From IMG/VR virus record IMGVR_UViG_3300022594_000007, positions 1 to 53,226 of that record: a DNA stretch of 53,226 nucleotides; one strand, given 5' to 3'. Under the pieces are notes generated by a model. That model was not told the DNA's origin, searched no databases, and was given only the letters and a program-made list of their open reading frames with translations. This DNA is from a virus. Positions 45,080 through 47,350 of the stretch are shown piece by piece. The position numbers were made by a program, and so were the translations under genes. The number at the start of each line of letters is the position of its first letter. Within the stretch, counting starts at the first letter, position 1.

Positions 45080-45330
45080 TGCTAAACAAATACAACGAGC
45101 TTCATGAAAAGTTGTTTACTCAACTAGTGGAATGGTACAACGTACATCAACACTGGTCGAAACGTCCAACTTATGAAAGAGCTTTTGAATTACGCAGAAC
45201 ATTAAAACATCTGCGTGAGATTGAGAAAGAAATAATGGACGAAATCCAAGTAGTCCGCAGAGCTGTACAAGCAAAAAATAAAGAAGTTAGGGAGAAAAAT
45301 AAAAATGAGCGCAACAATTCAAGCAATTAA
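45079..45330 (+). CDS. Small basic coiled protein, unknown
   Basis: This 83-residue protein begins by a 1-nt TAATG overlap with gp46 and has a GAGG ribosome-binding site inside the gp46 end. It is mostly helical and strongly charged: WYNVHQHWSKRPTYERAFEL, then a coil (LKHLREIEKEIMDEIQ) and a Lys/Asn-rich tail. No family is recognised. Its position between gp46 and an H1-like gene suggests a role with DNA, but this is only context. Its last 26 nt overlap the next gene. Confidence 0.75.
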   Translation: MLNKYNELHEKLFTQLVEWYNVHQHWSKRPTYERAFELRRTLKHLREIEKEIMDEIQVVRRAVQAKNKEVREKNKNERNNSSN

Positions 45331-45499
45331 AGACGCAGTAACAGCGTGGGAAGCAGAAGACACTAAGTTTGAAAAAGGCAATTCCGCGGCTGGTACTCGT
45401 GCCCGCAAAGCATTAGCAGAAGTAAGCAAGCTGATCAAAGCTCGCCGTAATGAAATTACAGAAACTAAAAATGCTCGCAAGGAGGCCAAGACTGCTTAA
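45305..45499 (+). CDS. Histone H1-like small DNA-binding protein candidate
   Basis: This is a 64-residue basic helical protein. The central KGNSAAGTRARKALAEVSKL element is the hallmark of the small proteins often labelled histone H1-like in phage genomes, in which a basic GTRARK turn is followed by a Lys-rich helix. DNA binding or nucleoid remodelling is the usual suggestion, though it is little tested. The ribosome-binding site AGGGAG lies inside the previous gene, and the two genes overlap by 26 nt. The end of the gene contains AAGGAGG, which serves the following gene. Confidence 0.78.
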   Translation: MSATIQAIKDAVTAWEAEDTKFEKGNSAAGTRARKALAEVSKLIKARRNEITETKNARKEAKTA

Positions 45500-45942
45500 T
45501 GTCTTGGACGTATCAAGGTACTTTAGTTGAAGAACTACCTGAGGACTGTATTGGATTTGTTTATCTTATCACAAATACAGTCAACGGGCGTATGTACATA
45601 GGCAAAAAATTAGCCAAGTTCTCAAAAACAACATATAAAACCGTCAAGTTAAAAAACGGTAAGAAGAAACGTAAAAAAATCAAAGGCAAAATAGATTCTG
45701 ATTGGAAAACTTATTATGGTTCCAGTCCTAATCTAACCGCAGACATTACTGCAATAGGCACAGACAAATTCACTCGTGAAATATTACATTATTGCACATC
45801 CAAGGCCCTCACATCATATCTAGAAGCAAAAGAACAATTCGAACGCAAAGTACTAGAATCAGACGCATACTACAACGGGCACATTCAAGTTAGAGTCCAC
45901 GGCTCTCATATCATCAAATCTCAGGCAACTAAAACAGTATAA
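45499..45942 (+). CDS. GIY-YIG family nuclease
   Basis: This is a 147-residue protein. The GIY-YIG core is visible near the N-terminus: GFVYLITN (residues 19-26) and MYIGKK (32-37). It is followed by a basic loop (KKRKKIKGK), SDWKTYYGSS and the conserved Glu region SYLEAKEQFE (about 110-120). This compact architecture is frequent in T4-like phages as a free-standing, Seg-like or repair-type endonuclease. No intron or split gene is seen nearby, so homing activity is not shown. The start overlaps the H1-like gene by 1 nt (TAATG), with a strong AAGGAGG site. It is the last gene before the noncoding stretch. Confidence 0.9.
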   Translation: MSWTYQGTLVEELPEDCIGFVYLITNTVNGRMYIGKKLAKFSKTTYKTVKLKNGKKKRKKIKGKIDSDWKTYYGSSPNLTADITAIGTDKFTREILHYCTSKALTSYLEAKEQFERKVLESDAYYNGHIQVRVHGSHIIKSQATKTV

Positions 45943-46230
45943 GCTAGCACAGGCTAAAATCGTGTGCCCATGACAAGGGGTTTAACTACGCCCGGACGGA
46001 ACTCTCTGCGCTGTACAGAGTACTCAACTACCATCCTTAACAGGACGTCGATCGCAAATGCCGCGATTTAGTTGTTTGAATAGAGTGATTAAGAGCTAAA
46101 ATGAGGGGACAGTGAAGCCCCGGGTTATTATACAGGATCGCATCTGCGTAATAATCGCCGTCAGGAAAAGACGTAGCTAGGGGTACAGGCTGACCGCCCT
46201 GGTAATGCTACAATGCGATGTGACTTGCGT
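45943..46230 (+). ncRNA. Candidate structured noncoding RNA with pseudoknot
   Basis: No credible ORF fills this stretch. GC is 121/240 (50%) by hand count over 45961-46200, well above the surroundings. Many helices can be drawn: 45947-51/45963-67, 45994-99/46031-36 enclosing 46004-08/46016-20, 46051-55/46063-67, an irregular hairpin 46068-46099, 46105-08/46118-21, 46125-31/46148-54, 46159-62/46170-73, and 46173-77/46207-11 enclosing 46179-82/46197-200. In addition ATCGCAT (46137-46143), inside the loop of one hairpin, is an exact complement of ATGCGAT (46213-46219) outside it, giving a 7-bp pseudoknot. It does not match tRNA, tmRNA, RNase P or group I intron signatures that I can recall. Strand is assumed from the flanking genes. 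The 5' and 3' ends are uncertain. Confidence 0.6.
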
Positions 46231-46252
46231 ACTCAGATAATGTCAAGTTTTT

Positions 46253-46273
46253 CTTAGCCCTGTCTGGGCTAAG
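46253..46273. repeat. Stable hairpin in the noncoding stretch
   Basis: CTTAGCCC (46253-46260), loop TGTCT and GGGCTAAG (46266-46273) form a perfect 8-bp stem. A possible outer GTCA/TGAC closure (46242-46245 with 46276-46279) extends it. Neither strand has a T-run downstream; the T-run is upstream at 46248-46252. It is therefore not a classical terminator and may be the 3' domain of the candidate RNA. Confidence 0.7.
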
Positions 46274-46303
46274 TGTGACCATTATATCTAGATAATATTT
46301 AAA

Positions 46304-46376
46304 ACTGCTTCGCAGTATCTACATATAGTAAATGTTTCAAGCGATAGCGCAGAAACATGTGAGCGTTAGCTCACAT
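46304..46376. repeat. Cluster of three compact hairpins
   Basis: Three palindromes follow in 73 bp. They are ACTGC/GCAGT with a TTC loop (46304-46316); ATGTTTC/GAAACAT (46332-46358) with an inner GCG/CGC and ATAG loop; and ATGTGAGC/GCTCACAT with a GTTA loop (46357-46376). The last two share AT at 46357-46358, so they compete or stack. The remaining stretch 46377-46438 is AT-rich and holds a TTAAATAAAACATC late-like motif (46401-46414) and the ribosome-binding site of the next gene. Confidence 0.75.
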
Positions 46377-46438
46377 AAGTACTTAAAATTAGTATTTGGG
46401 TTAAATAAAACATCAAACTATCTAAGTTGGAGTTATAA

Positions 46439-47350
46439 ATGCGTATTGAAGAACTATTAATAGAAAGTCACAATCTTGAAGAGGGTCCTGGATGGGATCA
46501 AGCTAAACAGGGCTTAGGTCAAATGGCTCAAGGTGTTGGCAATGTAGCTAAGGGTGCTGTTGCAGGTATTCCTGGTACTGTAGGTGGTGCCGCTAAAGGA
46601 GTTGGTGCTGTTGCAGGTGGACTTCGTGGCGCATGGGATAAAGCTAAACAAGGATACAATGCAGGGCGTGCCGCAGTAGGTGGTGATGCAGTTCCTGGTA
46701 CTCAGCAAGCAGGTGGGCAACAAGCCGCCGCAGGTAGTGCTCCAGTACAAAGTGGTGGACAAGATCCAAATCAATTACGTCAGCAAGGTAAAGCTCTAAT
46801 CAAACAAGCTGACGATCTAGAAAAACAACAAAAATCACAAGGTCAGCAAGCGCAAGCTGGTCAACAACAAGGTAGTCAAGTAAGTGGTCCAACAGGATCA
46901 CAAAGCAATGCAGATAATGGTGCAAATGCCGCCCCTACACAAGGCCAAACTCCTCCCGCACAAGATGCAGGCGATGGTAGAGTAGAACCTACAATGGATC
47001 CAAATGCGCCTCCAGCTGGTGCTACAGCACAACCTGCTGATGCAAATGCTCAACAGCAAGCGGCTCCTGCAGATGCTACTCCGCAACCAAATGCCGCTCC
47101 TGCACAAGGACAACAGCCTGCTCCAGCTCAACAAAAGTTAGATCCAAAAGCACAAAATGCACTTAAAGCTAGATTAAAAGCTGGACAAGGCGCTGGTGCA
47201 AAAGTAGGAAGTGGATTTAACAACTATGTAAAAGGTGGCGGTGGTCAAACATTGTCAGGCGCAGATGCTCAAGGTAATCCGGTATTCAAACAAAATGTTA
47301 AACGTGAGGACTTTCAATTTGAAAGTAAGTTCTTAGGAATGAGCATTTAA
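46439..47350 (+). CDS. Ala/Gln/Gly/Pro-rich low-complexity protein
   Basis: This is a 303-residue protein. The N-terminus MRIEELLIESHNLEEGPGW is a short amphipathic helix of a kind that opens several environmental phage proteins. Residues about 25-80 are Gly/Ala-rich with GVGNVAKGAVAG-like repeats that look helical and glycine-zipper-like. Residues about 85-240 are dominated by Gln, Ala, Pro and Asn and are probably disordered. The C-terminus ends EDFQFESKFLGMSI. No enzyme motif is present. The TTGGAG ribosome-binding site and a terminator immediately after the gene frame it as a single-gene unit. It may be a virion or scaffold component. It follows the candidate RNA and could share its transcript. 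Confidence 0.78.
   Translation: MRIEELLIESHNLEEGPGWDQAKQGLGQMAQGVGNVAKGAVAGIPGTVGGAAKGVGAVAGGLRGAWDKAKQGYNAGRAAVGGDAVPGTQQAGGQQAAAGSAPVQSGGQDPNQLRQQGKALIKQADDLEKQQKSQGQQAQAGQQQGSQVSGPTGSQSNADNGANAAPTQGQTPPAQDAGDGRVEPTMDPNAPPAGATAQPADANAQQQAAPADATPQPNAAPAQGQQPAPAQQKLDPKAQNALKARLKAGQGAGAKVGSGFNNYVKGGGGQTLSGADAQGNPVFKQNVKREDFQFESKFLGMSI

Follow-up and report, generated by a model that had tools for sequence, protein, structure and literature searches.

The window, which is the whole 53,226-nucleotide stretch of viral DNA analysed here, contains a single gap of more than 200 bp between open reading frames of at least 50 aa. This gap (positions 45943-46438, 496 bp) was correctly picked out in the preliminary description as the only long gene-free stretch. 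It had also been described as GC-richer than the phage, and the G+C content of 45943-46280 is indeed 0.488 compared with 0.390 for the whole window, a value reached by 1% of windows of equal size. Upstream lies a gene for a SegE-like GIY-YIG endonuclease, which itself comes after the gp47/gp46 recombination genes (SbcD/SbcC-like). Downstream lies a gene for a 303-aa protein, for which searches of Pfam and PHROG gave no match. A 64-aa protein encoded just 5' of the GIY-YIG gene (45305-45496, + strand) resembles the Hc1 histone H1-like family PF07432 (4.6e-15). Table 1 lists the predicted RNA, its parts and the neighbouring features. The RNA is longer than the 45943-46280 first assigned to it: its 5' edge is at 45942, sequence conservation reaches ∼46300, and conserved 3' hairpins continue to 46376.

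Table 1. Positions of the predicted RNA, its structural elements and the adjoining features in the window.
Feature	Position	Strand	Evidence or remark
Upstream gene, SegE-like GIY-YIG endonuclease	45499..45942	+	PF19835, 1e-33
Whole RNA, predicted extent	45942..46376	+	kept in >100 viral contigs; covarying structure
Body	45942-46219	+	subdivision of predicted RNA
Tail	46220-46300	+	subdivision of predicted RNA
3' hairpins	46304-46376	+	subdivision of predicted RNA
5' domain, RF01718 Polynucleobacter-1	45942..46077	+	cmscan, model 1-141 of 141
PK0	45942-45944 with 45953-45955 in P1 loop	+	2/3 pairs two-sided, 88.9% paired
P1 hairpin	45947-45951/45963-45967	+	5/5 pairs two-sided, 99.3% of cells paired
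P3 hairpin	46004..46020	+	covariation alignment, helices 3-4
Enclosing helix	46025-46030/46069-46074	+	5/6 pairs two-sided, 95.6% paired
P4	46034-46045	+	within enclosing helix
P5	46051-46067	+	within enclosing helix
P6 hairpin	46105..46121	+	length varies; 69.7% of cells in register
P7 long hairpin	46124..46155	+	12/12 pairs two-sided; loop forms PK1
PK1	46137..46143 with 46213..46219	+	7/7 pairs two-sided, 96.6% paired
PK2	46160..46164 (GUCAG) with 46190..46194 (CUGAC)	+	99.0% paired
P8	46173-46177/46207-46211	+	covariation alignment, helices 12-13
P9	46180-46183/46197-46200	+	covariation alignment, helices 12-13
Tail repeat copy 1, AGATAAT	46235..46241	+	identity covariation with copy 2, register 55 nt
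Tail hairpin between repeats	46253..46273	+	87.8% of cells paired; few two-sided changes
Tail repeat copy 2, AGATAAT	46290..46296	+	identity covariation with copy 1
Three 3' hairpins	46304-46316; 46332-46358; 46357-46376	+	kept in homologues, stems changing
Late-promoter-like TTAAATA	46401..46407	+	between RNA and 46439 gene
Downstream gene, 303 aa, outside RNA	46439..47350	+	replaced or missing after RNA in most relatives

Comparison with Rfam by cmscan, which had been proposed as a check, gave one match in the whole window, to RF01718 (Polynucleobacter-1), scoring 90 bits against a gathering cut-off of 37. The match is confined to the 5' third of the RNA, where 136 nt fit the whole model, and nothing convincing was found in Rfam for the ∼200 nt 3' of 46077 or for the 3' hairpins. 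The suggestion that the RNA belongs to no known class therefore fails for the 5' third and holds for the 3' 200 nt. Neither Rfam nor ARAGORN gave a match to tRNA, tmRNA, RNase P, group I or II introns or known ribozymes, in agreement with the preliminary description, and no tRNA was found in the window. Polynucleobacter-1 was proposed in a 2010 survey from sequences of Burkholderiales and of fresh water and estuary, and was tabulated there as probably RNA and probably cis-regulatory (Weinberg et al., 2010, PMC2864571). The environment is alike, and the helices of the RF01718 model are present in the viral set and covary. However, the model stops short of the 3' core, PK1, PK2 and the repeated tail, and class 2 and class 4 RNAs (below) lie outside it. 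These data show that the Polynucleobacter-1 family is only the 5' domain of a larger RNA; a motif filed in 2010 as a probable bacterial cis-regulator thus forms one end of a large RNA present in hundreds of phage contigs.

Covariation was assessed over an alignment (A1) of 60 diverged class 1 sequences, using a structure derived from the window. The structure was paired in 92.0% of 4233 cells, compared with 37-44% when partners were slid by one to three columns, and 54 of the 73 pairs had changed on both sides. Cells with two-sided changes numbered 648 against 67-109 in the slid controls, a comparison that somewhat favours the structure because it was read from the same sequences; the difference is not explained by the choice of structure alone. 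On every measure, none of 500 shuffles attained the observed value. The folding energy of the window sequence was ordinary (minimum free energy, z = -0.17), so the case for the fold is carried by covariation. That this is a real, structured RNA is near certain, and the homologues bear out the earlier proposal that the phage encodes a large structured RNA containing a genuine pseudoknot.

The body consists of hairpins tied together by at least three pseudoknots. The perfect 7-bp pairing on which the preliminary description had based its pseudoknot (PK1) is present far above chance and covaries, but it is not the single one, PK2 having been missed. The 3' strand of PK2 sits in the loop of P9 after an invariant GUACMGG, and the pairing is retained in class 2 and class 3. 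Its forms are GTCAG/CTGAC, GTCAT/ATGAC, GTCGT/ACGAC, GTTGT/ACAAC, GTTGA/TCAAC and GTCGG/CCGAC. At 46160-46172 and in relatives, GUY...GRC could pair locally as a short hairpin instead of forming PK2. Among the PK2 sequences listed, GAAC was seen with GUU forms only, which gives a hint of two alternative states around PK2. The hairpins at the 3' side, which were not found elsewhere in G001 or in the window, are likely to mark the 3' end of the transcript, the putative terminator having no T-run.

Homologues were sought in IMG/VR contigs beginning with the GIY-YIG gene and short patterns, all those found were metagenomic, and they were assigned to four classes by eye. Class 1 is the RNA of the window, class 2 has the same 3' core with a different 5' part, and class 3 has a 5' domain that still matches RF01718. 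Class 4 has a different body and the same tail. Classes 1 and 2 were found in at least 120 contigs, class 4 in at least 120 and class 3 in 38. The more widely shared parts are shown to be the 3' core (PK2/P8/P9) and the tail of two repeats around a hairpin. A second RNA class, starting GGTTRGCGGGCCNGT...AATACCGCTG, is present in at least 120 viral contigs with the same two-repeat tail (loci L235-L314, L015, L019, L022, L039 and L063); four sequences tested gave no Rfam match and the class is apparently undescribed.

Hundreds of bacterial viruses from fresh and marine waters share the RNA. The class 1-2 pattern was also run against 84,980 species of bacteria and archaea and hit a single contig, 4.5 kb long and with phage genes around the match. 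RF01718 matched once per genome, including contigs of 345-355 kb, and several carriers were 150-355 kb. Jumbo-sized T4-like phage contigs with the RNA include L144 (345 kb), L120 (355 kb) and L118 (262 kb), and the gp46-like gene of L095 is distantly similar to those of Pseudomonas phage PA5oct and Salicola phage SCTP-2. RF01718 was absent from the cultured phages PA5oct, SCTP-2, Melnitz, V45v66 and ACP17, which share neighbouring genes. A blastn search of cultured phages gave no match for the RNA of the window and only chance-like matches for that of L095.

The strongest non-Watson-Crick signal in an unbiased scan of column pairs came from tail columns exactly 55 nt apart (46223-46243/46278-46298). 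The two copies of the repeat read CUC-RGAURAW (copy 1) and UCU-RGAURAW (copy 2). At position 0 the copies were AA in 75 loci, GG in 51 and mixed in none of the 126 examined, while three were mixed at position 4 and two at position 6. The scan patterns demanded ACTCRGAT in copy 1 and left copy 2 free, so classes 1 and 2 were sampled through those letters; the script that read copy 2 demanded CTRGAT. In a phylogeny from which the tail was excluded, the state at position 0 changed at least 32 times, and all 14 supported independent pairs changed in step (p = 0.0001). Both copies were kept at every class 1-2 locus with enough readable tail. The class 4 tag reads RCAURAA, with GUAUGAA occurring once, in both copies, and positions 0-5 showed no mismatch in the 49 pairs parsed, a further 34 class 4 rows lying outside this count. 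The tags of class 3 differ again (GGCAU, GACAA, AGUCAAG), and by eye the copies largely agree.

The complement of the repeat was not found inside the RNA. Nor was it enriched near gene starts in five large phage contigs, a result that led us to reject antisense action on multiple phage start regions. Residues of neighbouring proteins, GIY-YIG included, did not track the repeat letters; the higher tracking values of neighbours o83 and d303 were obtained with 26 and 15 sequences, respectively. No convincing further copies of the repeat or of the 3' hairpins were detected elsewhere in large contigs.

The GIY-YIG gene adjoins the RNA upstream in 105 of 118 loci, which is usual and not constant; in the other 13 it is farther upstream (8) or absent within ∼2.8 kb (5). 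Downstream, the next gene is convergent in 64 of the 110 distinct loci with enough sequence, and the encoded proteins differ among relatives. An NTAAATA element, which we take to resemble T4-type late promoters, follows the RNA in 42 of 45 same-strand loci against 9 of 64 convergent ones. The preliminary description had allowed that the 46439 gene might have a long 5' leader here, and a riboswitch-like, cis-regulatory leader would suit both the same-strand gene that comes next in the window and the 2010 rating (PMC2864571). That rating, an annotation of position rather than a formal criterion, fails for the viral loci. Convergent next genes, and same-strand genes with late-type promoter elements of their own, indicate that the RNA is not the head of a downstream transcript. 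The leader reading is thereby largely refuted: we hold it very unlikely that regulation of the downstream gene is the role of this RNA, and with high confidence that the RNA is not the leader of that gene. From its position, the RNA either stands alone as a unit or closes the upstream transcript. In the window no promoter was recognised 5' of it, and at one locus (L227) the upstream gene is divergent, so there the RNA must have its own promoter.

We consider it probable, judging from sequence comparison, that this phage RNA acts in trans, its folded body displaying a pair of identical tags to a single kind of partner. It would be a noncoding RNA of ∼430 nt in large T4-like freshwater phages, made from the gp47/gp46/GIY-YIG strand before the late genes start, either by itself or as the final part of the transcript of those genes. 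The body would act as a rigid scaffold holding out two copies of one recognition sequence, and one RNA could bind two copies of the same partner, either a dimeric protein or a complementary nucleic acid at two places. Since the tag letters change often and do so in both copies together, such a partner would have to read the letters one by one and change too; our best guess is a host component met during takeover. The near-constant GIY-YIG neighbour would also suit a role tied to that gene. Strong conservation in otherwise differing viruses points to an important role during infection, and the coupled repeats offer a direct handle on activity.

The position of the RNA bears on two other explanations. 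An untranslated element at the 3' end of the gp46/GIY-YIG operon, protecting or processing the mRNA or blocking read-through into convergent late genes, would fit the usual GIY-YIG neighbour, the 3' hairpins and the convergent genes that often come next. The 13 loci at which that neighbour is not adjacent and the divergent upstream gene of L227 speak against it, as do three pseudoknots and coupled repeats that far exceed what such a role needs, and we regard it as possible but unlikely. HEARO RNA turned out to serve IscB, and the constant order of nuclease gene and then RNA, together with two identical exposed tags that could act as guides, would allow a similar partnership with the GIY-YIG nuclease. 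However, no GIY-YIG relative was found in 5 of 21 chosen contigs with the RNA (two of them ∼90 kb; these may be incomplete), the repeat letters are not tracked by residues of the nuclease, and Melnitz, a cultured relative, carries the nuclease gene but lacks RF01718. We hold such a guide very unlikely.

The remaining explanations turn on the repeats and on the form of the RNA. GOLLD and ROOL, named for comparison in the preliminary description, resemble this RNA in kind only: they too are large, pseudoknotted and phage-borne with no assigned function, and in GOLLD too the 3' part is more constant than the 5' part. The RNA might by this analogy form a homo-oligomeric particle, as GOLLD, ROOL or OLE, with the tags as assembly contacts; it is ornate and, as in GOLLD, a conserved 3' part is joined to a 5' part that can be swapped, as between class 1 and class 2. 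Yet it is about 430 nt long whereas GOLLD often exceeds 800 nt, no tRNA was found in the window, and 45700-46500 gave no hit to the Rfam models of GOLLD, ROOL and OLE at E values of up to 1. Watson-Crick contacts between molecules would moreover require complementary tags, not identical ones, and a particle of this sort seems rather improbable. Slightly more doubtful again is that a process at the DNA level (gene conversion, template switching or a recombinase that needs matched cores), rather than RNA function, keeps the repeats alike. Sequence that drifts while identity persists is as expected of matched recombination cores, but conversion would level the flanking letters, and these differ between the copies throughout (CUC against UCU, and mostly G against A at +7), which argues against simple gene conversion; the retention of both copies at all readable class 1-2 loci also speaks against such a process. 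In DRT2-type systems a reverse-transcription template carries matched jump sites, and template jumping requires matched direct repeats on either side of a hairpin. No reverse transcriptase (RVT_1) was detected in 24 RNA-bearing records of up to 355 kb, compared with 3 of 14 control genomes. A template of this type is contradicted for the polymerases that the model detects, and its likelihood would be negligible.

A bolder reading is offered tentatively for what would be a widespread class of viral RNAs that differ in their bodies, keep the same tail and couple its two identical 7-nt sequences one letter at a time. The copies could pair directly as a parallel like-with-like helix or form a two-site adaptor for some partner, which we think unlikely; if true, it would be a kind of RNA element new to us. 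Symmetric like-with-like pairing occurs in natural RNA, as an A-A helix between the chains of the OLE RNA dimer (PMC12286853), but OLE has no homology to the phage RNA, and its sites lie between chains whereas those considered here lie within one RNA and may not touch.

At nine loci (L085, L128, L132, L133, L149, L154, L171, L208 and L210) various genes separate the RNA from the GIY-YIG position, among them methyltransferase-, SGNH- and sulfotransferase-like genes identified by eye, and for this reason the spot 5' of the RNA seems to be a site where cargo genes insert. L129, a 92.6-kb contig in which the RNA has very different gene neighbours and lies downstream of GroES-like and MazG-like genes (by eye), is the one clear case of an RNA that has moved.
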